A stretch of DNA of 64,000 nt from Hysterangium stoloniferum (Eukaryota; Basidiomycota; Agaricomycetes; Hysterangiales; Hysterangiaceae). The notes under the pieces were generated by a model. The model searched no databases, had not been told where the DNA came from, and saw only the letters and a program-made list of their open reading frames with translations. This document shows positions 1,938-53,935 of this stretch, piece by piece. A program made the translations under genes and the position numbers. Each line of letters opens with the position of its first letter. The first letter of the stretch is position 1. The stretch lies in contig WHVD01000095.1 of NCBI GenBank assembly GCA_015178975.1, forward strand, positions 124,001 through 188,000, read 5' to 3'.

Positions 1938-2056
1938 ATATAACTGCTTGCCGCAGTGGCACACTGATGTGGCTGATAAAATGTAGTAAAGATTGATATT
2001 ATATTGATTCAAGGCTGGAGCTGAGCTCCTTATATGCATTTTAGTCTGAGACATTT

Positions 2057-2293: not shown

Positions 2294-2369
2294 GGTTTTT
2301 GCTGTAGTAGCATATATGATGACATAATGCTCTCGTGCCTGTGTGTGCGTATGACACCCTTCACGTCTT

Positions 2370-2487
2370 GTGACTGTCACGCGTCTTGTGACTGTCACGT
2401 GTTGTGACTGTCACGTGCCCTTGTGACAACTGTCACTTGTTGTGATGGCTGTCACTTGTTGTGACGGCTGTCACTTGTTGTGACGGG
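2370..2487. repeat. Seven-unit GTGAC...GTCAC inverted-motif array with CACGTG boxes
   Basis: About seven units of 16-19 bp each carry GTGAC followed after 1-4 bp by GTCAC, so each unit is itself a small palindrome. The last unit is cut short. Two CACGTG E-boxes lie at unit junctions. A related pair of GTGACAGTCAC-type motifs occurs in the 47.3-48.4 kb relative near 48.16 kb, so the motif is a property of the family. Confidence 0.75.
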
Positions 2488-3037
2488 TTTCCCGCGTGCC
2501 GTGTAATAAACACAGGTGACCGGCTTTATATTATTATAATTATTATATTTATTTTTAGTTAGTTATAAATATAATATTTTATTATAATAATATAAATATA
2601 TATATTGCCTTGATTATGCACGATTATTTCGCATCGCGTTTTGTCGGTGTCGGAGTTTGAAATGTCATGTGAATATCACATGATTACTCACGCGTTGTGA
2701 ATAAGCGCTGAGTCGCCGACATATTAATCAAAAAAGAATAAAAGGTAAAAATTTAATAACCTGCTCAATCTATAAGATAAAAATACAAAATAAATTGTAT
2801 AAATTCAAGATAAATCAAGCAAATATAGTACAATTTTATCGTTGCAATATAAATACATTTGAATATTTGTTTTCGCAATTTGTTAGGGGAAATTGTTTAA
2901 AAATTGGAAAAAAGCTAAAAATACATAACAGGGCACAGCACATAAGCTGAAGCCAAGTCCTTCCGATCAGTCCCTGTTGGCCAACCGACTTTAGTCAGTT
3001 TTCAGTTCTTAACACTTTGGCCTTAAAGGAAGGGTAC

Positions 3038-3466
3038 TGTTATGACCAGAAAACCTGCCAGGACCCAGACTCCATCATATGTACATAGACCCAACTCTCT
3101 GCATTGTATTAACAACACACTGGACCCCACCTGGACATTCTGGAACCCCTCATTCCCAATCTGTCTTTCCCTGTTTGTCATCTGGTTCAGTTTTACCTTT
3201 GTTCCCAATTAGTTTTGACACCTGGTGTATTGTATTATTGTACTCCTGTTATGTCTTTTTGTATGTCTGAGTTAGTAGTACAATAACCTACTTGTCTTTT
3301 GCACCCTGCACATTCTCAAAACCCATGGGTTTCCAGTCTGCTCCTGTTTGAAATTGGACAACATGATCTGTGAAGGTGCAGCACATATATAAGCTGAAGC
3401 CGAGTCCATCCCTGGAACTTCCACAGGTTTCCCCCAGAGACCCACCTGTGAGCCCTGCACTTAACA
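3038..3466 (+). mobile_element. Short family-B-like LTR with adjacent polypurine tract
   Basis: It begins TGTTATGACCAG and ends CACTTAACA. Start and end both resemble the ~820 bp family B LTRs elsewhere in the window, but this copy is only 429 bp. Immediately upstream, AAAGGAAGGGTAC (3025-3037) looks like a polypurine tract, as at the 3' LTR of the chromovirus at 26.7-34.4 kb. It is therefore probably the 3' LTR of an element whose body is gone. Flanking 5-mers do not match. Confidence 0.65.
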
Positions 3467-6400
3467 GTCTCACTCCCTTACACCTCCTTGGGACTTGAAT
3501 GTTGACCATCCCCAGTCAACCAACTCATCATAGTTTTGAAGGGCAAACATCATTGTATGGAATATCCTTGGGATTGACAAGGGAAGTGACTGGGATGATC
3601 ATGCAAGAGTGTGGATGGTATGGAATAAGGCAGAACACAGTGTAGGGTTGTTTGCTAACTGCACTGTCAAGCTCAGCTAGATATGCTGAATTCATAGACT
3701 GCCTTGGAAACATTATCAATAACAAAGGCATGCACACCTAGAAAGGTATGTGAGTAGAGAACTCCATGCATGTACAATGATATCCTAAGATTTCTAGGGC
3801 TAATACAATATCTACTACCTATATGCTGTTGGAATACATACATCATGTACAATGTTAACAGACTCTAAGACTGCATCTATTTTTAGGACACTTGATTGAG
3901 GATGCACAAAGGAATGATTCATTCCTTTGTGCCACTATTCTCTTTGTCCTCATTATTTCTAACATGCTACCCATAGCTCTATTGTTAATAATCTATATAT
4001 AAATTGTATTCCCATCATAGCTACACCTTAGTCCATTACACTCTACTGTTATATGAGACTGAGATATATATTTTAGGGTCTCGATTTTCAACATATGCCA
4101 GATATTAAGCTGTGTTAGAAATAACCATTTGAATGGACACTGTTATTGGATAAGCGCTTTGAATCAGTTAAAGGATTATTAACACTACTCCAATCTTGAA
4201 ACCAATGGATGCCGAGCACCTAGACCCAATCTAGGGGATAACAGATGGCTCTAATGCTGGAGTCAGCTCAGTACATGGGCACTGGACTGGCGAACCTGCC
4301 ACTGGGTAGGCGGATTGCCTTGTCCAGTTAGTGATAATGGTTGTAGCATCCAGGCCACAGGGTTGACATTGACTGCAACGACATTTAGAAAGTCGACTTG
4401 ACATGACAATTGACAAATAATGGGCAGCGTCCCGCAAATATAAAGGAATGCGACGACATAATATTATATGTGTAGCTAAGTCTACATATTTTACGGTAGG
4501 TCCCTATGAGATGACAGAAGCCTTGAGAAGTTGTGGACATGAAATTTTGGTTTATGGTAATGTAGTCGGGGACTGCAGCCGTTGATCGCTCTATAACCTT
4601 TTTTGGTTCCGTCCCAACCCTGATAGGACCTATCAGGGTTAGAGGGATATAATTCATCCTCGGTGCCGATGGTGGTTTTGAGATGTGAGAGGAAATAGTC
4701 ATACTTGATTAGCACATTCTCCTGTAAAAGGGTACGTATTATATCAATCACAATCAAGATACGGGATCGATGTAAATCTAAGCTAGCATGAATTGCCATC
4801 AGAAGAATTCCCCACTCGATCGTTTGATGGATCAGTATGGAATTGAGAGTCAAGTGATATTAATTAACCCTGGTGATCTGAGACTTCTTCTCGCAGAGAA
4901 GTTGGTTGAGTGGTGCGTTACAGTATAGCGGCGCCTGGGAAGTGAAAAGCGTTCTGGGATTCTCTGAGAACCGAAACATTCGCAGTGCATCAATGAATGG
5001 ATAAGGGGGGGGGGAAATAGCCACTGCGGCACTTGTTATAAATCGAGAACTGTATAGGGACGTTTTTGCTGGATCTTTTTTGACACCTGGGTGTAGACTG
5101 TGTCTGTTGTAGAACATGTAAATGGGGTCGAGCCGCCCATAGCATCAAGGAAAACCTGGAACATCATCTAGTTCGTGGGGGATAGAGGTGGGTATGGGAG
5201 AAATTTGTGGTTGGTGAGGAAAATACGTTGAGGCGTTTAGTGGAAGCTGGGGCGTGAATAGGGGAGAAATTGGCCACAGAGTTGATTAGTATGAGCGAAT
5301 ATCTAGCGACAGATTGCCTTGAATCGACGATATTGAATCATTAACGGGTGGACTGGTTATCAGAAATATTTTGTAGGATATCGGCGGGAGGTATATAAAA
5401 TATTAGTAAACATTTTCCCTCGTACGTAGCAAACTTTACTAAATGACTTGGACACTATCGTGGTTTAGAGTGTTGATCTATGGATACTGTCTTGACAACC
5501 CTTCTATGTAGACATCTGAGTCCCAGGCAAAATAAATAAATAAATGACACACCTGATAGCACTGACAACAGCAGCTATTTAATGCAAGGTAGCATCGTAT
5601 TTAAAACAGAGTCAGTTTAAGGCAGACTCTTTCATCACCTTAGGGTCGAGCTCCCCTCGTATTAATTAATACCAGCTACCAGTAAAAGAAGCCACAACGA
5701 GCGGTTGGTGGTGGTTCCAATCTGAAGTCGTGCCTCGTGTTCGGGGCGCTGGGCGGCGCCGGATGGTCCGGTGGTGATCGTGCCAAAAGAGGAAGGGTGT
5801 GCACTCCGTTAGGAGATGAATGTGGCGCACGTGGCAGAGGGAGTTATCGTAATTAAGTAACGAAGACCATGTGTTGAATATGAGTGTTGTGGTATAAACG
5901 CAGTGTGTGAACGATTTTATTCAAAGGTTTCATGTGAACTGGGCGTCGTGCTCATGGTAACGTGTATAGTCATTTCATTTCGGCACTGGCAAGTAGGATC
6001 ATATCTGAGTCGTTACATACTTCAAGTTGGTTATGTGAGACGCAAGGCTCGCTTGGTGGTTTCTGGTGAGACATGCGTGATAGGCCTCATTGAGTAGGGA
6101 AAATAAATCGTGTTCTATATACTCCCTGTATGTACATTTTCAATCTGATTCCTTTCGCGATCTGTGGTCCATGCTGTGGGTCCACTACCCGCAACCTGAC
6201 CGCCGCCGAGGCTTATAGCCGCAAGGTACGGGGTTCCATCGCAATGATGTCCTCCCAAAGCATCTGGCACGGAAGTAAGTATTTAAATGAGCGCAGTTTG
6301 ACAAGACTGGCCTTCTTTCTTCTCAAGGGGGTGATAGGCACGGAGAGGGAATTCGAAATCGAAGTCCAAGGCGCGAAGTCGAAGTCGAAGCTTGGCAAAG

Positions 6401-17346: not shown

Positions 17347-18828
17347 TGTTATGACTGGACAATCCCACTGGACTCCGGGCACTAACCCGTACGCCCCCAC
17401 ACCCCACACGCACCAAATGTCTGTTTATAGGATTTCCTGCCTGGACTTTGTACGTCAAGACTTGTTACATTTGACCTCATTACGACACATATCAGTCACC
17501 GGACTTTCCCCTGGACTCCATCTCTGTCTATGTCCATCTTCATCCCATGCATCAGTCACTGGATCCCACTCAGAATCCCGTCACCACTCTAACTGAGCCC
17601 CGTTCCTGTTTTAGTCAAATGACCTGTCACGATTAGGACTCCGCTCCCGCTCCGTTTCCCGTTATGGGTTATGATTTGTCATGATTCGGACTCCACTCTG
17701 TTCCTAACACCAAACTTGGTGTTTACTATTCCCGTTTTATGTTTTGTTAGTTTCGTTTTCATCATTACCGGATTTAGTATGTCATTCACTCCATGGTCTA
17801 TATAAACTGGCAGATGTTGTACATACAATCCAGTCAGAAAATTAGCTTAGATTCCCCCCAGTAATCTAATATATTTTCCGCTCTAAAACCTTAGGAGGGT
17901 GTTTATAATTACTATAATCTCAAATATTTACTAATAAAAGTCTTATTTTTACAAAACTCCATCTTTAAATAGTGATATCTATTCTGAAACAATTATATCA
18001 TCAAAAAACAACCATCAGAAATAGTTCTCCATATTACATCTCATACAACCCATAGTTATTTAATAAATTCCATTGTATATAATTTCCTTCCTTTTACAGA
18101 TGCCTACTAATACTTTTATTAGTACTTTGTTTTTTAAAAGTTGTAATGTAGTTACTTCCATGTAAAATATGTAAAATATTATTGGAAATTTTTCATACCA
18201 CAGCTGTCTTTATTAAGTAAAACCCCCTATATATTCTGGGTATGTTGAATCAAGTAGAAATCTGTTCAGATTGACAGATCCATTCCGAAGTAATACATAT
18301 GTATTTAGAGGTGCCAATAATATACATATGCATGAAATGGACTATCTAAAGGTATCTATTTTTTAAAAGTATTAGTGTTTCAAACTACTAATTTTTTTTA
18401 TTGTCTACTTGTGTCCGGAAAGATTCTTTAGTTTGTAATGTATGAGAGAGTTTAAAACTCTTTGAAAGTTTTAAAAACCAAATTATGTTTGAATCACATC
18501 CCAGATGTTTAAATGACCTTTAGAGTATATTAGAATTTGGTATACTTAATAGTTTTCAGATATCCTCCTTACTCTAATCACACCGCTCACACTAGCCGGA
18601 GCCCATGGGCTCCAGTACATCTATCTCTCTCACCACTCACGACTTACGACCCACGACCTCTGACCTACGACTACCCGACCACAAACCCCACCCAGACTCC
18701 CCAGGATTCCCGTCCACCTGTCTGAAATTGGACAACATGATCAAGTGAGGGTGCAGCCTATAAGCTGAAGCCAAGTCCTACCGGATAATCTGCAGGTTTC
18801 TCCGGAGACCCACCCTGTGTGTGTTAAT
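17347..18828 (+). mobile_element. Family B LTR containing a MITE
   Basis: It begins TGTTATGACTGG and shares its whole length with the intact family B LTR at 22123-22955, including the conserved TATAAGCTGAAGCC block (around 18757-18775). Removing the nested 675 bp element and one copy of TTA leaves about 800 bp, the usual family B size. The right end is degenerate (GTGTTAATGA in place of CCTAACA) and no target duplication is visible. Confidence 0.8.
17894..18568 (-). mobile_element. 675 bp MITE, copy 1
   Basis: This non-coding element has imperfect terminal inverted repeats (GGAGGGTGTTT here, GGAGGATATCT at the other end) and is flanked by TTA duplications (17891-17893 and 18569-18571). The LTR at 22123-22955 lacks it at the homologous place and shows a single TTA (near 22671), so it is a paralogous empty site. 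Two further copies lie at 46430 and 53174 in the opposite orientation. A 3-bp AT-rich target duplication suggests a PIF/Harbinger-like mobiliser, but the ends alone do not prove this. Confidence 0.85.
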
Positions 18829-23283: not shown

Positions 23284-25702
23284 AATATTTTCACCCTGCT
23301 TATGTAATTCTTACATATTGCTTTCTGTGCCAAGAATGGGGTAAAGATTCCAGCACAAAAGGCTACCTGGGAAGGAATTATATCACTTTTTAGGCAACAC
23401 CTACTTGATATCAAGGAGAGAATAAATGTTTGTCTTAGTTTCTTTTTTAAATATCAAACTTTTGAGCTAAAAACTTTATTTCAGGGCCCAACAGTCAAGG
23501 GCAAAGTTTCATTCATATGTGACTGCTGGCAGGCAAGTAATGCAGACTCATACTTTGCTGTCACAGCACACTGGATTGAATGGACTGATTCAAAAACATG
23601 GACCCTACAAGCCTCACTAATTGGGTTTACAAAGATGAACTGCTCACACAGTGGCAAGCAGCTTACAATGGCCCTATTCAAACTTATCAGCCAGGTTGAT
23701 ATTATCAAAAAAGTAAGTACATATAACAATTACAACATCACAAGCCATTATTTAATATAATTTAATGGACTGGTTGGATCACATCTGACAATGCAGCAAA
23801 CAATGGCACAATGATGAGAGAGTTCATGGTCCTTTTTGAAGGAGCAACAGGTGAAAAATATGATTGGAAAGAACATCGGATTTAGTGAGTTTTTCATTAT
23901 GTCTGTGTTATACAATACTAACATTAAATAATATTAAAATTACAGTGCCTTGCACATGTCATTAATTTGGCCACTTAAGCAATTATCTTGACATATTCTG
24001 CTGCTAAACACTACAACCCACATGACCCTGAAGCATACCTTCCGACTCAAGGCACAGGTGACAGGAGGGATGTATTGGGGATGGTTCATACCATAGTTGT
24101 GAAGGCATGTGATAAAAGATGTATTCAGTTCACACTGATACTATCTATATGCTTCAGGTTTGAAGCTCAAGCAAAAGAAAAGAACTATTTCTCTTTTATT
24201 AGATACATACATATGCCAGTTCATTGGTCATCTACATTTGTTATGATGAACTGGGCTATCTTTCACAGGATGTAAGTGTTAAAACAGATATGATACTTGG
24301 TTATTCTGATATTTTATATTGGTTTACAGCATGTGGATCACTTTATATTTGACATAACAGCTGAAGAGAATGACACCACAAGGCATGCAAAACTTTATTC
24401 ACTTGCATTGGATAAGGCAGAATGGGATGAGATCCAGGAATTTCGGGAATTAATAAGAGTAAGGATTTATTCAATTTAACATCACATCATCCAATTACCC
24501 ATTGAATTGGTTTTATCAGTATGCAGATGCTGTGCAACAAGCCTTCTCATCTGAAAACTATCCTACACTTTATTTGGCAATTCTGGCACTTGAGGGATTG
24601 TATGCTGCATGGACAAAGCACCATTCTAAGTGTAGCCCAATGTTCATTTCATTTTTAGGAGCTGGAATTGCAAAAATTCCTGAATACTACCACAAAACTG
24701 AGGAATTTGATGCCTATCTCATTGCCATGGGTATGTCATATACATTATACTGATCTGTACCACTTCATAGTCCTTGATATTCAGTGCTTAATCCCTTACA
24801 AAAAGTGCTGCATTTCAAGAAGTACTGGGGTGCTGAATTAAAAAATTGGGCACTTGAGCATGTTGAAAAAATAGTGAGAATCTGTGTTTTTCTGCTTTCA
24901 ATCACTCATTTATTTTTATATGTAGTTTCAGGAATGGTATATAAAGTTGTATGGAAATGGTACTCTGCTATTCAGCCTAAATATCCAAAAACCACAAAGC
25001 TATCACAGCTTTTACTTGAACTCGAAAGTAGCAATGATGATGAGAACAACAAAGCTTCCTTGAGTGCATCACCTTGGATGCATGAGTACCAGCACTGGTT
25101 TCAAACTGAAGAGGTAGTCCCAGAATAGAAGGGAATGGTGGAATGGTGGGGTGTAAGTTTTTTAACAGCAATTTTATTTATTTCATATCCTTAATTTTTA
25201 AAACAGGTTAATTGTGATAGATATCCTGTATGGGCATCCTTAGCCCTTGATTATCTTCCCATTATGGCTTCCTCCATATCTAGTGAGAGGGCATTTTCAG
25301 CAGGTGGCATTACACTCACATGCTGTTGAAACCATTCAAAAAATGACCCTATTGCAGCACTTCAAGCTGTCAAATGTGCAATTCAGAAGGACCTCCTCAT
25401 CCTCCAAAGCCTTCCTCTTCATTTGAGATGGATATTGAGAGTGACAAAGAAATCAAAACAAGTTTACAGCAGATTTGGGCTAGTGGGGATTCAGAGGCTG
25501 CATTGCTTGAAGTTGAGCTATCCTCTGATGAAGAGGAAATTTATGTGTAATATAAATTGATAGTATTTTTGAGGAGTTTTATTAGTAGACTACAAGTTTA
25601 AAAATGGCTTGTTGTACCACAGCCTGGGTCTAAGCCCGGCCAAGCCCAGCCCAGCCCAAGCTGGGGCTTTCAGGCCAGGCCTTGCCAATCAATAGATCCC
25701 AG

Positions 25703-26666: not shown

Positions 26667-27393
26667 TGTTAAGAACTGAAAACTGACTAATGTCGGTGGC
26701 CGATGGGGACCGATCGGAAGGACTCGGCTTCAGCTTATGTGCTGTGCCCTCGCAAATATCCGCAGGTGTGTCCTTAAATTTCGGGCGGGAAAAGACTAAT
26801 CCTAAGGAGTTCCTTTCAGTGAGATACCGATCGGGACCGAAGGGTAAGTCAAGTGTCAGGCCAGGGGGGTCGGGGCCAGGAGTGGGCGAGCGCACGCGAA
26901 GGTGGATGGGGGGATTCTTAGTATGAGACTGTTACAGACATATGTGGGTATTCTAAGTCAATATTCTGATTGCCTAGTAACTACAACTACAGCGGGTTCA
27001 TATACAAGTAACAGGCGTCTAGAAAATACTAATGGGGAGGAGGGCGGAGGATGGCATTAGCAATAAGCTTGACTAGGAACGGGAGGTTTATGATTAGTTT
27101 GGAGGCCGATGGTAACGGAGAGCAAAGATTACGATAAAAGGAAATAGTTAGAGGACTGCAAATATAGATAGACATATGTGAAACATAGAGTGGAACGGAT
27201 CATCATAATGAAAGGGACGTATCAAAGCATAACCAGACAGAAAGGCGTAATCGGGTTGAATTGACCGGGAGGCATACATCAGCATCGGGGGACCGACGGT
27301 CTCCGAGATATCGTCTTGATTGAAGAGAGATAACTGCGAAGATGTATCATCAGTTACTGTCAGTGTGTGAAGGGTTGTGACACGGTCATAACA
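26667..27393 (-). mobile_element. 3' LTR of the chromovirus
   Basis: It runs from TGTTATGACC (27393 inward, minus strand) to TTCTTAACA at 26667. It carries the conserved promoter-like block (ATAAGCTGAAGCC on the minus strand, about 26720-26745). Length equals the partner LTR exactly. Confidence 0.95.
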
Positions 27394-27509
27394 GTATCCC
27401 CTCATTTGGCCGAAATCCCAAGGAGGCCGAAAATCTAGATTGTATACGTAAAACAATGTCGGTTACGGGTTGTGTGTCAAAACGTCATGTGACCGGTAAA
27501 ATTTTCGCA

Positions 27510-27517
27510 TATAAAAA
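27510..27517 (+). promoter_or_regulatory. TATA box of the opposite-strand gene
   Basis: TATAAAAA lies 49-56 bp upstream of the ATG at 27566 and outside the LTR, in the 170 bp between the polypurine tract and the ATG. A CGTCATGTGAC motif at 27483-27493 could be an upstream element. The spacing fits a short 5' leader. Confidence 0.6.
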
Positions 27518-27565
27518 TGGAAGGTTACAAGGCGCTTGACTCTTCATCCTTACATTCCAACCACG

Positions 27566-28570
27566 ATGTCGCTGAACCCTGGGGCGAAGACCATCCCTGT
27601 CAGGCTGAGGGTAACCCCCTTATCGGGGCTGACCGGAACGCCAAATGCACAAGAACATCGTCGCCAACTAGAGGCGAGAAAGAAGGCGCATGAGGAGGAG
27701 GAACGTAAGGAGATGGAGGAGTTGAAAGTGATTGAGGTGGCCGAGGCGGAAGAGAAGAGACGGGCCGAGGTGGAAGCTACACGCAAGCGTCAGGAGGCCG
27801 AGCTTGCGAGGAAAAAACAGCAGGAGGCTGGTCGGGCCCGAGAGGAGGAGGTGAGAAAGAAGCGAGAAGGGAAGGTAAGTTTTAGGAGAAGCATCGCACT
27901 GCGAATATCTACTAATGTTCCCTTTTCAGCAAAAAGCAGTATCGCCGTCGGTATCCGATGAAGAGGATGAGGGCGACGATGATGAGGCTGCAGGGCCTTC
28001 GAGCCCGAAGGTGCTTATATATAATTTTATTTTTGCTATCGCTGACTTTTAGCGGCAGAGACAAAAAGGGGCCCCAAGGTGGGGCCCGAAAATGATCCTA
28101 GGTGTAACCGCTGCACTGCTCGGAATCGAGCTTGTCATCCACGGGCAAACAGTTGGGGCCGCACATGCCAAGAGTGTGCAGGTCAAAAACTCAGTTGCAC
28201 CTTCCCGGTGGCCGACGTGGGTGCAGTCTACAGGGAGCGTCAGACGGACGCGATGGAGGAACAAAACTGCCTTATGCGGTTGGACTTCTCGGAGACCACT
28301 CGGTGGCGAGCCGAGTCTCTGCAACAGCAGGGACTCTTCCAAGAGCAAATGCGACTGCTGGGAGTCGCTATTGGAGAACAGACGGCCATGTTACAATGGG
28401 TCGGGAGGCAGCTCGAGCAGTACCTCGAGCTACCTAGTTCGGACGAGGCTGAGCCGGTTAGGGCCGTGGAGGGAGCTGGAGGACAGAGAATATCGGCTGC
28501 CGTCGGTGAAGCAAGAGCTTCAGAGGCTGAGGAGGAAGGGGAAGTGGCGGAGGGTACTTTAGATAGTTAA
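27566..28570 (+). CDS. Opposite-strand accessory gene: coiled coil plus Zn2Cys6 cluster
   Basis: The plus strand, opposite to gag-pol, shows three open blocks: 27566-27874, 27930-28010 and about 28061-28570. They are separated by two short gaps with GTAAGT...CAG and GTGCTT...AG borders that look like introns; the second acceptor is uncertain between 28053 and 28061. The first block starts MSLNPGAKTIPVRLRV and becomes a long Glu/Lys/Arg/Ala-rich coiled coil. The second is acidic (SDEEDEGDDDEAAGPSSPK). The third has six cysteines at 28103-28198 spaced C-x2-C-x6-C-x10-C-x2-C-x6-C, the GAL4-type binuclear zinc cluster, preceded by a basic KRGPK and followed by a Leu/Gln-rich helix and an acidic tail. 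It converges on pol, whose stop lies at about 28708. The role is unknown; nuclear DNA binding or regulation of the element is inference. The older relative at 44-54 kb has no room for it. Confidence 0.7.
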
Positions 28571-28699
28571 CCAAAAAATAATAATTTGACTTAATTCTTC
28601 TTTTTTTTTGAAAATGTGAATTGAAAAGGCATTGGATAGTGAGACTTGATAATTAAGTTCGACTTGGGGTTTTGAAGATCGGAGGCCGTCAGGTGCCGT

Positions 28700-31600
28700 G
28701 TGAAGACTTAAAGAGAGTCTAAAGGACCGGGTTTGTTCAGGTACAATTGATGGAAAGCTAAAACAATTTCTGACGCATTGCCAAGTTCGGTGGCTAGGAT
28801 CCAGGAAGTTTCTTCATCTGTACCTTCATTGCCAGTCCCTTTGACCAAATAAAGTAATTTGCATGTTCGCCTGCGATTGTCGATTTTAGAGTCTAGAATT
28901 TCCGATATTTCAAATTCGGGTTCCCCATCAATGATCACTGGTGGTGGTGGTGGTTGTATCCGATCTGGTATGGCGTTAGCAACACAGGGTTCTAACATAG
29001 ATACATGGAAGACCGGGTGGACTGCACGCATGTTGTCAGGAAGCCGAAGCGTCCATGAAAGCGTGCCGGCTTGTGCTATAACTTCAAAAGGACCTAAATA
29101 CTTTTCAGAGAGCTTCTTAGAAGGTCTAGTAGTTCGGAAAAACTCGGCTTTAATGAATACTCGGTCACCGATCTTGAAGTCAGGAGGTGGAAGTCGGTTT
29201 TTATCCGCAGACCGTTGGTATCGTTCTTGAGCCATTGCGATAGTTTTACGAAGTTCTTGATGTAGCTCGTCAAGGTTTATGACAAAGTCTTGAGCACGGG
29301 CGGATGTGAGATCGCGTTCCGGGTGGATTGTGATGTTAGGGTTGTAGCCTTTATTTGCGAAGAAAGGCAAAATGTGGGTAGTGGCATTCAGTGCATTGTT
29401 GTATGCGAATTCGGCTAACGGTAGTAGTGATTTCCAATTGTCTTGTTGATAGTTGCAATAGACACGGATGTATTGTTCCAAGGTTTGATTCATGCATTCG
29501 GTTTGACCATCGCCTTCCGGGTGATAGCCCGAAGTGAAATGTAACTTCATGTCTAGTGCTTTTCCGAGTGACCTAAAGAAGTGAGAAACAAACTCGGATC
29601 TGCGATCAGATGTAACATGCGATGGAATGCCATGCTTGGAAAATACATGGGTGACGAATAATTCTGCTAACTGTACAGATGTTATCGTGTCATATGTTGG
29701 AATGAAAATACTTTGTTTTGTAAGCCGATCCACAACAACTAGGATTGCTGTGTGACCTTCGGATGCCGGTAGGTGCTCGATAAAATCCATAGAAATCGAG
29801 TTCCAAGGTTTTTCCGGTATCGGTAATTGTTTGAGTAGGCCATATGGTTTGTGTCGCTGTGATTTAGAGCGTAAACATGTAGTACAAGATTTACAATAGT
29901 GCTTAACGAAATCTTGGATGCCGGGCCATGTATATTCTCTTCTAATGAGTGAGAGGGTCTTATTGAGGCCGAAATGTCCCGAAATTGGGTGGTCGTGCTT
30001 ATGCTGTAGGATTCACAGCCGAAGGGTGTCGGAGTCTGGTACATAAATGCGATTGTCAAATCTAATAAAACCTTGTGAGTCTAATGACCATCGGGGTTGA
30101 TCGGGATCGGACGGGTTATCGAGGTGTGCTTTGGTGACTGGGTCTAATGGAATTGCCGAAAGTATGTCTTGATGTAACTTTTCGGTATCCATAAGGATAA
30201 CACTTCGCAAGACTGGATGAATGAGGTAAGTGGCTCGGATAGATGTGGACAGTTGTTCCGATGAAAACATAGGCTTGAAATTATGCAGATTAACTGTGGT
30301 GTAGTCACTACTCCCCTCTTTAGGATAGACGTCCCATCGTCTAGTCATAGTGTCGGGTTTCCCACCAAGGCGGCCGGGACGGAAGCGAATTACCATGTTA
30401 AAAAAGCAGAGAGGTATTCGGACCATCAAGCTTGTCGACGGGTGAGAAGTTTTGTCGTTGAAAAGTAAACTAAATTTTTGTGGTCTGTAATAACATCTAC
30501 CAGGTGGGCCGATCCTTCCAAATAGTGTCGCCATGTCTTGAAAGCTTCAAATATTGCAAGTAGTTCCTTATCGTGAACATCATAGTTGAGTTCAGGCGCC
30601 GAAAATGTGCAAGACAGAAAAGCTACTGGGTGTACTTCACCATCGGTGTCCAGGATGGACAATATCGCAGCAAGCACATAGTCCGAGGCATCAGTTTCCA
30701 CGATGAGCTGAATGTCGGGCTTCCAGTGCGACAAAATAGGGGCAGATGTAAACGCACTTTTCAATTCTTGGAATGCCGATCGGCATTCTTCGGAAAAATT
30801 CCACAGGGCATCTTTACGAGTAAGACGAGTGAGCGGAATGGTAATTTTTGAGTAGTTGTGAATGAAATGACGATAACAATTGGTGAAGTCTTTAACCTTT
30901 CAGGGTTCCAGCCAATCTTGAATGACTTGAATTTTAGTATCATCCATGCGGAGACCGTCGGGTCCCATCATGAAACCTAAGTATTCAACTGTGTCGACAT
31001 CAAAAGAACATTTTTTACCATTCGCAAAAAGACCATGTTTTCGGAGTCTTCGGAGAACTTCACGAACATGTTCGTCATGAAGTGTAGGGTCTTCGGAGAA
31101 TATGAGGATGTCATCTAAGTACACAATGACAAAAACGTCGAGGAGGTCGGAAAAGACGTCGTTGATAAAACGTTGAAAGACCGATGGAGCGTTGGGGAGG
31201 CCAAAAGGCATCACTAACCATTCAAAGGAGCCATAGCGAGTGTGAAAAGCCATTTTCCATTCGTCGCCTTCGGCGATCTGAACCAAATGATAGGCATGCT
31301 TGAGGTCTATCTTTGTATAGATTCGGGCCTTCCGAGGGGCATCGAGTAAATCGGAGATTAGTGGTAATGGGTACTTGTCTTTTCGAGTGATCGCATTTAG
31401 TCCTCTAAAGTCAACGCAAAGCTGAAGGGAACCGTCTTTTTTCCAAACGAATAGGACAGGGGCTCCATAAGGAGACTTTGAGGGTCGGATAAAACCTATA
31501 GCCAAATGTTCGTCCAAGAAATCTTGGATAGCCGATAATTCGGACTGCGAGAGAGGATAAACTGGGCCTAGGGGCGGATGTGAACCATCTTCAATATCAA

Positions 31601-33680
31601 TTTTCAAATTGTAAGGCCTGTGAGGGGCAAGTCGATTGGCTTTTTGTTTACTGAAGACATCTGCAAATTCATGGTATTTTTTGGGAACACCTTCCAAATC
31701 TGCGATCGGTTCGGCCACCGGGGATGCAAAGCGACCGGTGACTTCGTCAACTTTGAGATTGACTGTAAATGTTCGGGAGCCGTCCAACTTGATGGCTCTC
31801 ATAAAAGCTGCGGCATTTATTAGAGAGATGGGCGGTGGAGAGCTCAGATTTGCCATGGGGGCCGGAGGTGCTGTAGAGGCCATATTTGCTGAAACAGGCA
31901 GAAATGGACCAGTCGTATCAGGTGCCGTCGGGGTTCGGAAATGGATACTGCCCAATACCCAATCAATCAATGGATTGTAGCGGGTGAGCCAGTTATGTCC
32001 TAGAACCACAGAGCAACTCGGGTCCAACTGTGTTACAAAAAGCATAACTGTCTGAAAGGTTCCACATGGGAACCGAAGTCGGAGTTCGCAGGCTTGCGAG
32101 ATTACGGAGTTAGAGGTACCATCAAAGAGTCGGAGCGGAATCGGATCTATTGCATAGGTTTTTTAACTGATTTTTTTGTGAAAAACTTGTATCTATAAAA
32201 CAATGGGTTGAACCTGAATCTATGAGAGCTCGAAAAGTGAGACTCCCGAGAGGTTCCGAAGTAAGATTTATGAACAAAGAATTAGGATCATACAAGGCGG
32301 ATGCGTTAAGATGACAATTTTCCGGTGTGCGAGGAGATTCAACGCAACTCTCCAACTGCACAGAATACAGAGAGTTGCTTAATCTTTTTTTGACTCGGGA
32401 GCTGGCTTAGCCGGTTGGGAGGTCGCGGCCGTAGTGGCCGATCGGGCTTTTGTGGCCTTTGGGCAGGCAGCGACTCGGTGTCCGGGATCTGCACACAACA
32501 AACAAAGGTTGTTGTCCATTCGGCGTTGCTTTTCCTGTGGTAGAAGCTTGCCATCGGAGCCAAGTTTGCCAGTTAAGTCGGGTTTGTCTTTGTCTTGAGA
32601 CTTATTCGACTGTTTTCCCTTGCCTTTTTTGTCGTTAGTCCCTTTGTTTTCGGACTTCTTATTGGAGGTCGAGTTGCCACTGTTGTTGGTGTTTTGATTA
32701 CCAGACTTGTTGGCGTTCTTATTGTCCGACGATTTCTTGTCTGAGGGGTTTTCACGACTAATTTCCAAATGTTGTTCCCAATATCGGGCGTCTGCGTTTT
32801 GGGCTTTCAGACGCATGAGAGGGAGGGTCTTTGGCTTGCTGGTCTCTCCTTTGGAAACTTCATCTTTGAGGTGAGACAGGAGGCCAGAGTAAAACTGGTA
32901 TCAGAGGGCTGAATCGCCCCAGTCGCAACGTGCGGTGAGGTTGTTGAACTGGACGATGTAATCGGTGATGCGCTGGGTGTCTTTCATTTTGAGATTAGAA
33001 AGCGCGGTTTCGGCATCGCCAGTTTGGTCGTAGGGACCGAAATTTGTTTCAAGTTCCTCTACAAAGGCATCCCAATCGTGAAGCCAATTGGGATCTTCAG
33101 AGGTGAGGCCAGAGAATGCGGGTTCAAACCAGGCTGCTGTGGAATCCTTAAGGTATGAGAGTGCGAAGTTTACCTTTCGGTCATCCGTTGCGAATGCAGC
33201 CGGGTGGTCCCGAAAGTTGAATTGACATTGCATAAGAAATGTTGGTAATTTCTTTGGGTTTGAACCAGTGAATGGTTTGGGTTTGTTGACTCGGGTTTGC
33301 CCAGGTTCTTTTTCCTTGATATTGCTTTTAAGGAATTTGTTAAGGGATCCTAGGGTACCTGAGAACAATTCCCATGTCTCTTCGGGGTCGAGAGCTGGTT
33401 TCTTTTTTGCGGACTTGGAACCACTAGCCTGAGGTTGGTCGCCATCCTTGGGTTCGAGTTCTGGAACTGGTTGATTGTTAATCTCTTCAGTTGCTTCGGG
33501 TTCGGTTGCTTCAGTTATTTCTTTGGCATCACTGGTAATCTCCACAAAGTGAGATTCTTCAGAGGTTTCTGGTAACGGGGTTCCCTGAGTAGCTCGGGCT
33601 GTATACAGAAAAGGAGACTTGAGAGTGGAAGATTCTGCTTCACCGCTTGGCTTGGCATTTTTCCTCGGAGGCATGATTAA
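28700..33680 (-). mobile_element. gag-pol region of the chromovirus
   Basis: Parts on the minus strand, right to left: gag (about 33.67-32.9 kb, with FNFRDHPAAFATDDRK and AAWFEPAFSG); a Lys/Asn/Gly-rich linker with a CCHC knuckle (CLLCADPGHRVAACP, near 32.5 kb); aspartic protease (ALIDSGSTHCFID, near 32.2 kb); reverse transcriptase (FRGLNAITRKDKYPLPLI and YLDDILIF, 31.6-30.9 kb); RNase H (VETDASDYVLAA, near 30.7 kb); integrase (GHFGLNKT-type finger region, then a catalytic core with MDFIEHLP and YHPEGDGQTE, 30.0-29.2 kb); and a C-terminal chromodomain (EISEILDSKIDNRRR, near 28.9 kb). The chromodomain places it among chromoviruses, whose chromodomain directs integration to marked chromatin. 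It is broken at about half a dozen places. Confidence 0.88.
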
Positions 33681-33713
33681 AGTGGAAAATGCGAGTGTGA
33701 AATCAGAATATAC

Positions 33714-34440
33714 TGTTAAGAACTGAAAACTGACTAATGTCGGTGGCCGACAGGGACTGATCGGAAGGACTCGGCTTTAGCTTATGTGCTGCGCCCTCGC
33801 AAATATCCGCAGGTGTGTCCTTAAATTTCGGGCGGGCGAAGACTAATCCTAAGGAGTTCCTTTCGGTGAGATACCGATCGGGACCGAAGGGTAAGTCGAG
33901 TGTCGGGCCAGGGGGGTCGGGGCCGGGAGTGGGCGAGCGCACGCGAAGGTGGATGGGGGGATTCTTAGTATGAGACTGTTACAGACGTATGTGGGTATTC
34001 TAAGTCGATATTCTGATTGCCTAGTAACTACAACTACAGCGGGTTCATATACAAGTAACAGGTGTCTAGAAAATACTAATGGGGAGGAGGGCGGAGAACA
34101 GCATTAGCAATAAGCTTGACTAGGAATGGGAGGTTTATGATTAGTTTGGAGGCCGATGGTAACGGAGAGCAAAGATTACGATAAAAGGAAATAGTTAGAG
34201 GACTGCAAATATAGATAGACATATGTGAAACATAGAGTGGAACGGATCATCATAATGAAAGGGACATATCAAAGCATAACCAGACAGAAAGGCGTAATCG
34301 GGTTGAATTGACCGGGAGGCATACGTCAGCATCAGGGGACCGACGGTCTCCAAGATATCGTCTTGATTGAAGAGAGATAACTGCGAAGATGTATCATCAG
34401 TTACCGTTGGTGTGCAAAGGGTTGCGACACGGTCGTAACA
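33714..34440 (-). mobile_element. 5' LTR of the chromovirus
   Basis: 727 bp, running from TGTTACGACC (34440 inward, minus strand) to TTCTTAACA. The minus-strand block ATAAGCTAAAGCC near 33.78 kb is the likely core promoter. Relative to its partner it keeps more CpG at the variable sites. Confidence 0.95.
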
Positions 34441-34711
34441 AGTGGTTGGGAAACAAGTTTCAATGGAGCCTTCTTAACTGAATAAGAGTTGCAGATCATC
34501 CTCATGTCGGCTACCCCTGTGAAATTTTAATTTCTCACAAGCCTGGGAACCCTTGCTATGCTGCAGGGCTGTCACTTCATGTCCTGCCCCACAACTTCGC
34601 TGCGGGCTCCAGCTTGTTAGGGGGCAAAGCCCCCCAAACCCCCCCACATCGACAACTCTTAAGTATTTCTGACACTCATTGTCAGAGACCAAGGAAATTG
34701 CTTTCAAATGG

Positions 34712-34880
34712 AAAGTCTCGTAGAACGTAAAGTCTCGTAGAACGTAAAGTCTCGTAGAACGTAAAGTCTCGTAGAACGTAAAGTCTCGTAGAACGTAAAG
34801 TCTCGTAGAACGTAAAGTCTCGTAGAACGTAAAGTCTCGTAGAACGTAAAGTCTCGTAGAACGTAAAGTCTCATAGAAAG
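34712..34880. repeat. 17-bp minisatellite, about ten copies
   Basis: Nine perfect tandem copies of a unit containing TCTCGTAGAACGTAAAG are followed by one degenerate copy. Both CpG sites of the unit are intact in every copy, unlike the CpG-poor surroundings, which suggests recent expansion or gene conversion. Confidence 0.95.
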
Positions 34881-35004
34881 GAAATTGTTTAAAAGTGGAA
34901 AGTCTTGAAAGAATGGAAAGCTTGTTAGAACAGAAATTGTGTTAGAATGGGAACCATTTTAAAGAATGGAAATTGTCTCAGAAAGGAAACCATTTAGAGA
35001 ACTG

Positions 35005-35175
35005 AAACAACATTCACAAAGGGAAACAACATTCACAAAGGGAAACAACATTCACAAAGGGAAACAACATTCACAAAGGGAAACAACATTCACAAAGGGA
35101 AACAACATTCACAAAGGGAAACAACATTCACAAAGGGAAACAACATTCACAAAGGGAAACAATGGTCACAAAGGG
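35005..35175. repeat. 19-bp minisatellite, eight perfect copies plus a variant
   Basis: The unit is AAACAACATTCACAAAGGG. Because 19 is not a multiple of three, all three frames stay open over it; the resulting open frame is an artefact. The unit is related to the array at 35.69-35.88 kb. Confidence 0.95.
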
Positions 35176-35639
35176 AAGCAACAGCAACAACTCTTTATGT
35201 ATTTCTGAGACTCCTTGTCAGACATTGTGTTAGAAAGAACAGCATTTAACAGAAAGTCTTTAAAGGACAGAAAGTTTCTAAAGGAAGGAAAACTGTTCAA
35301 AGAATGGAAACTATTAAAAATAGTATGAGTTGACTCTATTGCAATACACAATCTAGAAGGGTTTAATAAGCTTGTAATGAAAGTACTTGTGTCTCAATAT
35401 CTTGTGTCAGTTAGTGTAGCACCTCCTGACAATATAGGTTTGGTGCTCTGGGAGGTGTATAGTGGTTCTGACACACATTAACCTCCAAATGCATGGTCCA
35501 CAATTAGCATCTTCATATGAAAAGTTGCAATAATTGGTGGACTCCCCCCATAAAAAGGTGTGTTTCATCATCAAATTTAACAGAAACTGTTCAGAGAACA
35601 GAAACAGTTACAAAGGTAACAAAGATAACTACCATTACA

Positions 35640-35885
35640 AAAGGAAACAACAGTCACAACAGTCACAACAGTCACAACAGTCACAACAGTCACAAATGGA
35701 AACAATGGTGACAAATGGAAACAATGGTGACAAATGGAAACAACAGCGACAAATGGAAACAACAGCGACAAATGGAAACAACGGTGACAAATGGAAACAA
35801 CAGTGACAAATGGAAACAACGGTGACAAATGGAAACAACAGCGACAAATGGAAACAATGGTGACAAATGGAAATGACAGCTACAA
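35640..35885. repeat. Composite minisatellite: 9-bp then 19-bp units
   Basis: Five copies of CAACAGTCA (about 35649-35693) lead into roughly ten copies of a 19-bp unit GACAAATGGAAACAACAGY with small variation. The 19-bp unit differs from that of the 35.0 kb array at only a few positions, so both arrays probably share an ancestor. Confidence 0.92.
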
Positions 35886-35989
35886 AAGATGCAACAGTGA
35901 CAAAAGGTGCAATAGTTTCAAAAGCAGCAATGGTTTCAATCAAACATTGAGTTGATCTTACTGTCATGTATTGTAGTTTATTTTACTTT

Positions 35990-36300
35990 ATGTAATTTAT
36001 TTTAGTTTATTATATTTTATCTTAATTTATTGTACCCCATTTAGATTTAGTGTTATTTATTTTATTTTATTTTATTTTATTTTATTTTATTTTGATTTAT
36101 TGTATTTGATTTTGATTTATTTTATCCTGATTTATTGTATTCTATTTTGATTTATTATATTTTGCTTTAGTTTACTCTATTTTATTCAATTTTTAAGCAT
36201 TTTACTTTTATTTTTTGTATTTATTTCAATTTATCCTATTTTATTTGTATTGTATCTTGATTTATCCTACATTATTTTGATATATTGTATTTTATTTTAA
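35990..36300. repeat. T-rich low-complexity tract with (TTTTA)n
   Basis: The segment is built of TTTAT/TTTTA/TTGAT pentamers, with a clean (TTTTA) run at about 36059-36092. No gene is present. Confidence 0.85.
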
Positions 36301-36379
36301 TTAACCCGGAAAACCATGTAGACCTCCTCTGGGGATTTACCATCCTTCTCTGGGGAAATGGCTTCACAGGGGCATGGGA

Positions 36380-36765
36380 AACAAAATGTGTGGAAAATGC
36401 CCCCGTGAGGGGTGCAGGAAATAGTTCTGTGAAAGGTATGGAAAATCCCTCCATGAAGGGCATGGGAAATTCCCCCGGAAAGGTCATGGGAAATGCTTAT
36501 GTGAGGAGGAATGCTTATGTGAAGGGCACGGGAAATGCTTATGTGAAGGGCACGGGAAATGCTTATGTGAAGGGCACGGGAAATGCTTATGTGAAGGGCA
36601 CGGGAAATGCTTATGTGAAGGGCACGGGAAATGCTTATGTGAAGGGCACGGGAAATGCTTATGTGAAGGGCACGGGAAATGCTTATGTGAAGGGCACGGG
36701 AAATGCTTATGTGAAGGGCACGGGAAATGCTTATGTGAAGGGCACAGGAAATGTTACTTGGCAAG
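36380..36765. repeat. 24-bp minisatellite, ten near-identical copies with degenerate leader
   Basis: The unit AATGCTTATGTGAAGGGCACG plus GGA repeats ten times from about 36509. Left of it, more diverged units of the same period extend back to about 36380. As 24 is a multiple of three, a 176-codon open frame with the octad GNAYVKGT runs through it, and the other strand is open as well. No start context, introns or domain support a protein. Confidence 0.92.
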
Positions 36766-36804
36766 TCGTGGGAAATGTCTTCATTAGGCCCTGTGAAATG
36801 GTTC

Positions 36805-37565
36805 CGCACGTGTGACAAATACTCCCGCAGCCTTACAAAATACTCCTGCGCCTTTCAAAAATGCTCCCGCATGTGTAACAATACTTCTGTGCACGTGACA
36901 AAATACTCCCGCACCTGTAACAATACTCCCGTGCCTGTAACAATACTCCCACGCTTGTAACAATACTCCCATGTGTAAGGGCGACTCTCTAGACCACACT
37001 AACTCACACTATGACTGAGTTGGGGTCCTAGCAGAGGAAATCCAAAGAGAGTTTATACCTGTCTAATTACATACATGTAGAATACAAGATTACTTACCTA
37101 GCAGAGGAAATCCAAAGAGAAAAGTCTAAGGAATCCTTGGCTAGCGGGTGACTAACTAAAGGTGCAGCTGAGTTTGAAAATGTGATAACAACAAGGTGCC
37201 CCTCTCAGTCTTTACTTATGAACTATATTAAGGAGAGTCAGAGAAAATGGAAAACTTAAGATTGTCCCTTGACACCATGCCTGTAACAATACTCCCGTGC
37301 CTGTAACAATACTCCTGCAGCATCGAAAAATACCTCTGTGCATGTGACAAAATACTCCCGCGCATGTAACAATATTCCTACGCATTATGAAATACCTCCA
37401 TGCAAGTGACAAAATACTCCCACGCTCGTCACAAAATACTTCTGCACTCGTCACAAAATACTTCTGTGCTCGTCACAAAATACTCCCGCGGCGTCACAAA
37501 TACTCCCACAAGTCCAGAAATACTCCCATGGCGTCAAAAATGCGTCCACGAATGGTAAAAAGCCT
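36805..37565. repeat. ~20-bp degenerate minisatellite interrupted by an LTR
   Basis: Units of the type ACAATACTCCCGTGCCTGTA recur on both sides of the 301 bp insert at 36974-37274. The repeat is more diverged than the 17-, 19- and 24-bp arrays and so older. Confidence 0.85.
36974..37274. mobile_element. 301 bp solo LTR inside a minisatellite
   Basis: It starts TGTAAGGGCGACTC and ends GTCCCTTGACA, giving TG...CA ends with short inverted repeats (TGTAAGGG against TGTCAAGGG). It is flanked by a perfect 5-bp duplication, CCATG (36969-36973 and 37275-37279). A direct repeat CCTAGCAGAGGAAATCC occurs twice within it (about 37027 and 37097). It is a new LTR family for this window, perhaps Copia-type given its size. 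Confidence 0.8.
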
Positions 37566-45389: not shown

Positions 45390-46429
45390 TATACTTACTA
45401 TATTGAATTTTTAAGTCTTGTTTACATCTCCATTTCCTTCCCCACTTCTTTCTGACCTGTCATCACTCTTGCTTCACTGATTAGCCCTCCAATCATCAAT
45501 CTCTCTGTAGTATAAAGTCCTTTGATGCATGCTACAGTTTCCACAGTTTGAAAATTGACTTTAATTACCCTCTACTAGTTCTCAGTCTCTTTCCTCCCTT
45601 CTCAATACTCTCAAAGATGTTCTTTGGCAAGCTGTGAACTCTTACCTCATGACTCTCAGTATTTTGGCCCACTGGTCAATTGAGTTAAGTGTTGAATTTG
45701 TCTTTATTGTACTATCTGCTCTGTTTGAAATACCAGAGCACCCTAACAGTTCATGTGAGGGTGCAACACATAAATTGAAGCCAAGCTCCACTATTTTTAT
45801 AGAGTCAGACCTCCCAACTAGTACAATTTCTATTGTTTGGCCCCCAATTAGCTCATTTCATATATCAGCCCCCTGATTTAGAGTCTTCCTCCCCCATTTT
45901 TCTTAGATCTTAACAGTATTTTCAAACTCAAGCTTGTGAACTGTTAATGATGGCCTTCCAGCTCAATGCATCCACTCTTTTAGACCCCAACTCCCTTTTC
46001 ATCTCCTTGATTTGAGCACCCATCCCTTCCAAGTTTAGAGCCTTGGTGGACTCTGGATCTACCCACTGCTTCATTGACACTGATTTCCTCACCATTCACA
46101 AGCTCAAAACCCAATCTGTTGATCTGGTCCCCCCCTGACTCTTTGATGGCACTAGTAATAGTGTCATACATAACTCAAGTTTGTGACCTTGCAGTTGTTT
46201 TTTTGTGTGGAACTCCTCAGCAGCTCACATTTTATGTGACACAGCTGGATTTGAGTTGTGTGGTCATCCTTGGATATGACTGGCTCACCTGCTTCAATCG
46301 ATTGAATGACTGGGTATTAGGACATCAAACTTTCCAGGAACCCAACAGTCAAATTCTCGCCTCTTCAGTCTCAGCAAGGACAGTGGTGGCTCCACTGGCC
46401 ACCTCTTCCATGATGGACCCCCCACCTAT

Positions 46430-47104
46430 GGAGGATATCTGAAAACTATTAAGTATACCAAATTCTAATATACTCTAAAGGTCATTTAAACATCTGGGAT
46501 GTGATTCAAACATAATTTGGTTTTTAAAACTTTCAAAAAGTTTTAAACTCTCTCATACATTACAAACTAATGAATCTTTCCGGACACAAGTAGACAATAA
46601 AAAAAATTAGTAGTTTGAATCACTAATACTTTTAAAAAATAGATACCTTTAGATAGTCCATTCCATGCATATGTATATCATTGGCACCTCTAAATACATA
46701 TGTATTACTTTGGAATGGATCTGTTAATCTAAACAGATTTCTACTTGGTTCGACATACCCAGAATATATAGGGGGTTTTACTTAATAAAGACAGCTGTGG
46801 TATGAAAAATTTCCAATAATATTTTACATATTTTACATGGAAATAACTACATTACAACTTTTAAAAAACAAAGTACTAATAAAAGTATTAGTAGGCATCT
46901 GTAAAAGGAAGGAAATTATATACAATGGAATTTGTTAAATAACTATGGGTTGTATAAGATGTAATATGGAGAACTATTTCTGATGGTTGTTTTTTGATGA
47001 TATAATTGTTTCAGAATAGATATCACTATTTAAAGATGGAGTTTTGTAAAAATAAGACTTTTATTAGTAAATATTTGAGATTATAGTAATTATAAACACC
47101 CTCC
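46430..47104 (+). mobile_element. 675 bp MITE, copy 2
   Basis: It has ends GGAGGATATCT and AAACACCCTCC and flanking TAT duplications (46427-46429 and 47105-47107). It differs from copy 3 at about a dozen positions by eye (about 2%), although the Gypsy around it is very diverged. Confidence 0.9.
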
Positions 47105-47280
47105 TATCTCTTTAGTTAATGCCAATGTGTTTTTACACACCAGTAAGATGGATGGATCCCAGATATTTTCACTGAACATCTCTCAGCTCAATGCCTCTGT
47201 GTGCATGACTACCCCTTCAGAGGCCACTGTTGACCTCTGTAAGGTATCTGGCTGTTTACTCTCTCAAATAGTTTAACAAA

Positions 47281-52723: not shown

Positions 52724-53935
52724 TATTAGGATCCCCATCATTTTGGACCCTCATGAGTTGTTTTTTTAGTCATGTAACCCTCCATCATCCTACTATCAGT
52801 ACCCTTCTCATGATAGCACTGCTTGCAGTGCCCCTGACAATTGTTTGGTCATATCCCAGCACCCTAGCCTTCTGTCCTATCTCCATTCCACTCACTCCCC
52901 CATCACTGTTCCACATATGTACAGTATATATCTCATTTGCCACCTCACACCTTTTTAGTATACTTTCTATATTGTATTTGAGTCTTGTTTACATCTCCAT
53001 TTTCTTCCCCACTTCTTTCTGACCTGTCATCACTCTCACTTCTCTGATTAGCCCTCCAATCATCCATCTCTCTGTAGTATAAAGTCCTCTGATGTATGAT
53101 ACAGTTTCCTCAGTTCAAAATTTGACTTAGATTACTCTCTACTAGTTCTCAGTCTCTTTCCTCCATTCTCAATGGAGGATATCTGAAAACTATTAAGTAT
53201 ACCAAATTCTAATATACTCTAAAGGTCATTTAAACATCTGGGATGTGATTCAAACATAATTTGGTTTTTAAAACTTTCAAAAAGTTTCAAACTCTCTCAT
53301 ACATTACAAACTAAAGAATCTTTCTGGACACAAGTAGACAATAAAAAGAATTAGTAGTTTGAAACACTAATACTTTTAAAAAATAGATACCTTTAGATAG
53401 TCCATTCCATGCATATGTATATCATTGGCACCTCTAAATACACATGTGTTACTTCGGAATGGATCTGTTAATCTAAACAGATTCCTACTTGGTTCAACAT
53501 ACCCAGAATGTATAGGGGGTTTTACTTAATAAAGACAGCTGTGGTATGAAAAATTTCCAATAATATTTTACATATTTTACATGGAAATAACTACATTACA
53601 ACTTTTAAAAAACAAAGTACTAATAAAAGTATTAGTAGGCATCTGTAAAAGGAAGGAAATTATATACAATGGAATTTGTTAAATAACTATGGGTTGTATA
53701 AGATGTAATATGGAGAACTATTTCTGATGGTTGTTTTGTTGATGATATAATTGTTTCAGAATAGATATCACTATTTAAAGATGGAGTTTTGTAAAAATAA
53801 GACTTTTATTAGTAAATATTTGAGATTATAGTAATTATAAACACCCTCCAATACTCTCAAAGATATTCTTTGGCAAGCTGTGAACTCTTACATACCTTAT
53901 GACTCTTAGTCTTTTGGCCCAAGTTGCTGAATTGG
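52724..53935 (+). mobile_element. 3' LTR (family C) of the old Gypsy, containing a MITE
   Basis: It starts TATTAGGATCC after the polypurine-like CAGGGAATAC. It is homologous to the 5' LTR up to about 53935, where homology ends. The terminal part of the LTR is instead found in opposite orientation at 54041-54290. Confidence 0.75.
53174..53849 (+). mobile_element. 675 bp MITE, copy 3
   Basis: 676 bp, flanked by AAT on both sides (53171-53173 and 53850-53852). The 5' LTR of the same old Gypsy has a single CAAT at this place (about 45605), giving a second empty-site proof of insertion. Confidence 0.9.

Follow-up and report, generated by a model that had tools for sequence, protein, structure and literature searches.

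Does the strand opposite to gag-pol, between the end of pol and the 3′ LTR of a decayed Ty3/Gypsy element of Hysterangium stoloniferum, carry a genuine gene, and what might the product do for the element? An earlier note on this DNA had proposed such a gene, with introns and a TATA box of its own, and had suggested that it was under separate constraint. The locus was examined here in the window, which is the whole 64,000-nucleotide stretch that was analysed, and in related copies throughout the same genome. The positions of the features are collected in Table 1.

Table 1. Features of the element and of its antisense gene, in window coordinates.
Feature	Position	Strand	Remarks
Ty3/Gypsy chromodomain element	26667..34440	(-)	LTR pair; 5-bp target duplication CCACT on either side
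3′ LTR	26667..27393	(-)	first ~150 bp (27243-27393) part of the putative exchanged block
Putative exchanged block	27243..29000		chromodomain end of pol, antisense gene and first ~150 bp of U3; edges approximate, transferred from the comparison of L020 with L066
Polypurine-tract side adjoining the 3′ LTR	27394..27440		strong conservation between types A and B (alignment read by eye)
Antisense gene	between pol end (28711) and 3′ LTR	(+)	three exons; ~300 aa in relatives
CATGTGAC upstream of TATA box	27486..27493	(+)	29/29 type-A and 5/5 type-B upstream sequences
TATA box, outside the LTR	27510..27517	(+)	29/29 type A, 5/5 type B
Exon 1	27566..27874	(+)	N-terminus, long charged helix
Intron 1	27875..27929	(+)	GT-AG, branch-like CTAAT
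Exon 2	27930..28010	(+)	acidic stretch; basic ends, NLS-like by reading of the sequence
Intron 2	28011..28058	(+)	GT-AG
Exon 3	28059..28570	(+)	cysteine cluster, then long helix and acidic tail; lacks one base near 28075
Six-cysteine cluster C-x2-C-x6-C-x10-C-x2-C-x6-C	28103..28198	(+)
pol	28711..32601	(-)	broken, several frames; SH3 and chromodomain at end
gag	32382..33776	(-)	two frames in the window copy (broken)
5′ LTR	33714..34440	(-)

The carrier had been described as a Ty3/Gypsy chromovirus, which was borne out for the minus strand by the LTR pair (96.0% identity over 727 bp), the target duplication, gag, and a chromodomain after the integrase part. The domains were taken from a relative, whose proteins scored above the Pfam cut-offs for Retrotrans_gag (53.2 bits), SH3_Tf2-1 (72.7) and Chromo (29.2), the latter two at the C-terminus, and for Ty3_capsid. 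The genome of the window (111 Mb), from which alone all family counts derive, also holds members in which the LTRs are 99-100% identical and both gag and pol are open; the retrotransposon family is not dead and has been active recently. In nine LTR pairs, including that of the window element, 128 transitions were counted vs. 9 transversions, and 90 of the transitions were at CpG. This strong CpG decay suggests cytosine methylation of the elements. A direct repeat, GGCCGAAA, lies beside the polypurine tract at 27408-27432 with 9 bp between its copies, and is kept in both types of element described below despite differing flanks.

The antisense gene was sought elsewhere in the genome by tblastn with exon 3. 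Among the best 150 of 648 candidates scored, all listed with E < 1e-50, ~32 were of the type found in the window (type A, 77-100% identity) and ~118 of a second type (type B, 53-68% identity). A rough count by hand put at approximately 80 the number of the 150 listed matches whose aligned part had no stop; the stops in the others were mostly TGA. Type-B genes open to the natural stop include L043, L051-L053, L055 and L065; the proportion of intact type-B genes is not estimable, as L046-L065 were picked mostly for being open. At L044 (C62:85800-88400) exon 2 is enlarged to 97 codons, mostly Asp-Glu-Glu repeats. The linkage of gene and element was assessed from the pol side with a 451-bp pol stretch of a type-A copy as query, its matches being assigned to gene places by hand. 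The best 40 of 1583 matches (98-100%) comprised 19 beside type A, 19 beside type B and two at contig ends, a ratio that is no estimate of genome frequencies because the query came from a type-A copy. All 38 assignable matches among these 40 carry the antisense gene, with neither a third type nor an empty element among them. Five pol neighbors had no listed gene: two run off contig ends, and the other three (L079-L081), considered as a third cassette type, were rejected as such when they proved on reading to be damaged type B.

The gene model was derived by aligning the window with the 28 of 32 fetched type-A loci that matched without a large break, the split loci L037-L040 being excluded. Both introns fall between codons, and GT-AG was found at all four splice sites in 29/29 type-A copies. 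In type B the four positions were intact in 25, 24, 24 and 22 of 25 copies; where a site was missing, it had been lost to a deletion (L045, L059 and L060). Intron bodies differ among copies whereas splice sites stay. Intron 2 ends at the second AG; the first, which a reader would pick, leads into a stop in the copies inspected. Placement opposite the pol end was seen in the window and in five type-B loci (L041-L045), and placement on the LTR side was checked in L041, L042, L043, L045 and L066. The introns, frame and promoter elements of an opposite-strand gene between pol and the 3′ LTR recur in dozens of copies, including the TATA box outside the LTR, and the charged helix, acidic stretch and cysteine cluster that the earlier note had described are all present. 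That note had named the absence of same-place copies in other elements as a refutation; such copies were found.

The claim that the gene is open in the window copy itself failed. In exon 3, near 28075, it is a base shorter than 27 of the 28 other aligned copies, all of one length there; the remaining copy, L030, has an indel of its own near this position. The frame of the cysteine cluster therefore does not continue that of exons 1 and 2, and what stays open at 28046-28567 is the frame of a single exon. An off-pattern acceptor located two bases downstream might rejoin the window frames, which is unlikely. Seven of the 29 aligned type-A genes, with the window counted, are open throughout, six of these with ATG. 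The proposal of separate constraint accordingly finds no sign in the window alone and obtains its support from the other copies.

That support came from pairwise comparisons of spliced genes. Within type A three pairs gave dN/dS values of 0.11, 0.17 and 0.15, and six pairs within type B gave 0.11-0.25. Four pairs between the types gave 0.10-0.20, values that are rough since dS is near saturation at 1.3-2.4. The highest upper bootstrap bound on any of these ratios was 0.45, and the ratios across copies lie far below the value near one that had been named as a refutation. Gag and pol pairs gave 0.03-0.27, with 0.29 for one small pol-tail pair; judged from these ratios, the antisense gene is constrained about as much as gag-pol. 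In four pairs of spliced relatives only one of the six frames, that of the antisense gene, was stop-free. The other five had stops in every pair and dN/dS values of 1.2-2.3, bar one, the antisense frame with shared third positions, at 0.19-0.26. Differences were concentrated at third positions (22, 24 and 67 for L015-L010, for example). In three A-B pairs change was least in the charged helix and cysteine cluster, and greatest in the C-terminal tail. The gene is almost certainly real and selected at the level of the protein.

These data bear on two alternatives in which a protein would have no part in the element's life. The frames might have arisen by chance, or might belong to a recently captured host passenger gene without a role in the element. 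The broken window copy on its own would look just so, but the selection tests refute this account, as do the presence of the gene beside all 38 assignable pol matches and its conservation across deep divergence, and its probability is negligible. Alternatively, the antisense RNA itself might be the regulator, with an incidental reading frame. The transcript would converge on pol, and antisense transcripts have been proposed as regulators of other elements in the excerpted text of PMC7264820. Nonetheless, codon-position bias, dN/dS of 0.1-0.25, and splice sites kept over dS of 1.3-2.4 require selection on the protein, and strongly disfavor this explanation, which is very improbable.

The two types of gene reside on closely similar elements. 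L020 (type A) and L066 (type B; the same insertion as L048) are both young, with LTR identities of 100% and 99.3%, respectively. Their gag-pol regions are 96-100% identical from about position 750 to 5400; beyond 5400, identity in 150-bp steps drops to 92%, then 85%, and then to 62-79% across the antisense gene. The initial 150 bp of U3 show ~50% identity with gaps counted, or 62% without gaps, and the remaining LTR 74-98% in 50-bp steps; LTR variation inside type A also includes two 50-bp steps of 76% between L020 and L014. The dS between L020 and L066 is 0.05-0.07 in gag and most of pol vs. 0.69 in the last 113 pol codons; for the related pair L015-L048, the coding sequence of the antisense gene gives 2.0. 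Among chosen copies the pattern was general: mean identities in pol and in gene exons, respectively, were 94.9% and 66.9% for 60 A-B pairs, 96.0% and 91.5% for 15 A-A pairs, and 94.1% and 84.5% for 45 B-B pairs. The elements are, with high confidence, mosaics of near-identical gag-pol with two divergent 3′ blocks.

Trees of the two parts disagreed. The gene tree (38 rows, with L044, L047 and L063 omitted) resolved type A (16 of the 29 copies) and type B (22) as clades with support of 100/100. The pol tree was built from 21 segments, with segments <700 bp (L010, L043, L045, L070 and L078), L077, which gave no match, and nine near-duplicate or further A copies left out. In this tree a single A clade was rejected (AU p 0.0029), and four changes of type were needed, at least two of them forced by starred branches. 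The A/B label nevertheless is clustered on the pol tree, only 6 of 500 shuffles giving as few as four changes, and exchanges therefore have been few. The topology and identity profiles suggest that a cassette has been passed between elements, made up of the chromodomain end of pol, the antisense gene, and ~150 bp at the start of the LTR; such an exchange would be more surprising than the existence of an antisense gene. The swap between near-identical gag-pol backbones of two anciently separated forms, A and B, presumably would occur via template switching between co-packaged RNAs.

The mosaic might also be read from its other side: gag-pol may have been homogenized by recombination, so that only the 3′ block still shows an old division into A and B. 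Homogenization would leave the same pattern, and the main difference between the two accounts is which side counts as the incomer. The old copy L036, which has four stops, speaks against simple homogenization of gag-pol, as it contains an A coding sequence between B-like flanks with switch points between TATA and ATG and at the stop codon, and so needs exchanges inside the 3′ part as well. Homogenization is possible but doubtful; it concerns the mosaic only, and is compatible with any functional reading of the gene.

The features of the predicted protein provide some guide to its function. GAL4-type Zn2Cys6 domains (PF00172) have the spacing C-x2-C-x6-C-x5..12-C-x2-C-x6..8-C. In seven aligned cluster sequences from the family all six cysteines are invariant and their spacing is within this definition; basic residues and a helix after the cluster are further points of likeness. 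Unlike the GAL4 type, the cluster here is placed mid-protein after a charged helix and scored below the Pfam cut-off with Zn_clus (12.7 bits vs. 21, E 0.14). Moreover, the GAL4/LAC9 profile aligned over only 14 columns with a probability of 6%. The label GAL4-type that had been attached to the cluster consequently holds for cysteine spacing and not for profile-based membership of the family. A PDB profile search found no match at E 10, two intact proteins had no match to PF04195 (Retand TRP28) at E ≤ 1, and Pfam searches with whole proteins and the cluster, together with a search of viral contigs, yielded no significant homologue. The genome has 76 Zn_clus matches, 61 of which exceed the Pfam cut-off on their own, and none of the 76 was at the listed places of the antisense gene when compared by eye; on the question of a host origin, the tblastn list was saturated by element copies. 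A single-sequence structure model of the window exon-3 frame was weak (mean pLDDT 61, pTM 0.32), with pLDDT < 50 in the cysteine cluster and 73-95 over residues 61-120, where the helix after the cluster is predicted. As read from its sequence, the product is probably a nuclear, dimeric, zinc-binding protein that binds DNA or chromatin.

How might such a protein serve the element? Transcription of the gene would run opposite to gag-pol and probably start at the TATA promoter of the gene, next to the 3′ LTR; removal of both introns would give a product with a charged helix, an acidic and basic linker, the Cys6 cluster, a long helix and an acidic tail. We infer that the gene is expressed and that the protein most likely acts in trans for its own family by raising the expression or mobility of the element. 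Possible routes would be activation of the LTR or the lifting of methylation-based silencing; as CpG decay points to methylation, a protein that counters silencing or activates the LTR is an obvious candidate. That the gene is constrained to a degree similar to gag-pol favors a product that aids multiplication of the element, and retention of the protein in those lineages that went on multiplying likewise favors a positive role. A nuclear factor that promotes its own element is tentatively preferred here, at a probability a little short of even. The opposite orientation of the gene would account for the introns, which can survive retrotransposition because the genomic RNA is the other strand, where they are no introns.

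Purifying selection alone does not tell an activator from a repressor. The protein instead might limit the expression or copy number of its own element, with the two forms as immunity types and a swap of the cassette as the means of escape from resident repression. The persistence of two ancient types on near-identical gag-pol, each beside 19 of the best 40 pol matches, fits this proposal, as do the exchange of the U3 start together with the gene and the four type changes, at least two forced, on the pol tree. However, a repressor acting in trans would be hard to keep by selection on single elements, yet constraint is similar to that on gag-pol, and L036 pairs an A coding sequence with a B-like U3. 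Self-repression is improbable on balance.

A broader possibility, whichever the sign of the regulation, is that the gene and the start of U3 may form a regulatory or immunity cassette with two ancient specificity types that is swapped between active elements, much as temperate phages exchange immunity regions. If true, this would be a retroelement with its own sequence-specific transcription or anti-silencing factor and type-specific targets. L036 again is relevant: the coding sequence and U3 are not strictly linked, which weakens the idea of a module of protein plus target site. Comparison of CGG/CCG triplets between types A and B also was negative, with 4/6 conserved vs. 66/165 other triplets upstream of the gene, and 3/13 vs. 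44/165 in the exchanged U3; values in the rest of the LTR examined were 6/6 vs. 115/159. An inverted CGG/CCG pair in U3, considered as a target site, was dropped after this test. A type-specific or immunity-like module is a real possibility, though less likely than not.

Alternatively, the nuclear protein may act after transcription rather than at a promoter, for example in export of genomic RNA or in the choice of integration site. Constraint as strong as that on structural genes, the charged and helical architecture, and the fact that the exchanged block also takes in the chromodomain end of pol are all in keeping with such a role. The GAL4-spaced cysteine cluster, although membership of that family is putative, is more suggestive of DNA binding, and a post-transcriptional function is considered rather unlikely.

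The arrangement itself is already known in kind. In plants, knowledge of antisense accessory genes in Gypsy elements goes back to 1997 (cited in PMC7264820), and Grande, RIRE2 and Retand carry them at the same place according to the excerpts of PMC7264820 and PMC11963269. In these excerpts the plant genes (aORF-3R) share place and orientation with the present gene and are suspected of a nuclear or DNA-binding role, while their role is stated as undetermined (PMC7264820). Retand, as portrayed there, has its antisense gene in nearly all recent copies, as do the sampled kin of the window element. Retand is a plant non-chromovirus whose gene has PF04195, whereas the present gene belongs to a fungal chromovirus, has two introns and a Cys6 cluster, and has no PF04195 match. 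Exchange of the cassette between backbones is a feature of the present family, unlike the plant aORF elements.

Parallels outside plant Gypsy elements are looser. HTLV-1 is an animal retrovirus whose antisense product, HBZ, is a bZIP protein with its promoter in the 3′ LTR. The likeness is that of an antisense nuclear protein of a retroelement, nuclear location being predicted for the present gene product. HBZ is mentioned in the excerpt of PMC11963269. VANDAL elements are DNA transposons. VANC of Arabidopsis VANDAL is described in the abstracted text of PMC5735166 as an element-encoded, sequence-specific anti-silencing factor with related forms that have different targets. It is a different protein and may be a working parallel, not kin; loss of methylation is shown there for VANC only.

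The earlier note had stated that no fungal case with a zinc-cluster protein was known. Botrytis, an ascomycete, offers a precedent for an antisense gene in a fungal Gypsy element. The Boty-like Gypsy elements of this fungus contain the antisense gene brtn (Zhao 2011 Virology 417:248, via the mentions in PMC7264820 and PMC8365987), which on these accounts resembles the present gene in its arrangement. For a cysteine-cluster gene the statement stands within the scope covered: no such antisense gene of a fungal or basidiomycete Gypsy element was among the literature matches listed, which were open-licence papers, and a text search of the fungal surveys PMC2864245 and PMC3248453 did not find the word 'antisense'. 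As far as these literature matches go, the combination of a spliced Cys6 antisense gene in a fungal chromovirus with exchange of the cassette is new. Recent copies are numerous in the family, its protein is demonstrably selected, and nature has joined the same gag-pol to two gene forms; together these render the role of antisense Gypsy genes directly testable. The preserved introns also show a route by which introns can be kept through retrotransposition, namely by placing the gene opposite to the genomic RNA.

The old element at 44-54 kb of the window had been viewed as a related copy with little room between chromodomain and LTR, and hence as a sign that the gene was gained or lost within the group. 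The gap indeed is short, ~200 bp from the chromodomain end (52533) to the LTR (~52730), and the element gave no tblastn match to the antisense gene, but it is only a distant relative, with pol pieces of 40-72% amino acid identity. A repeat that probably is an LTR family, with ~97% identical copies at 17883-18571, 46427-47115 and 53172-53852, has places within or beside this older Ty3 element. Elsewhere, frames resembling remains of a hAT-type transposase were read from the ORF list at 23308-25128 on the plus strand, and tandem arrays of 17-, 19- and 24-bp repeats occupy 34656-36821, just beyond the 5′ LTR of the element that carries the antisense gene.
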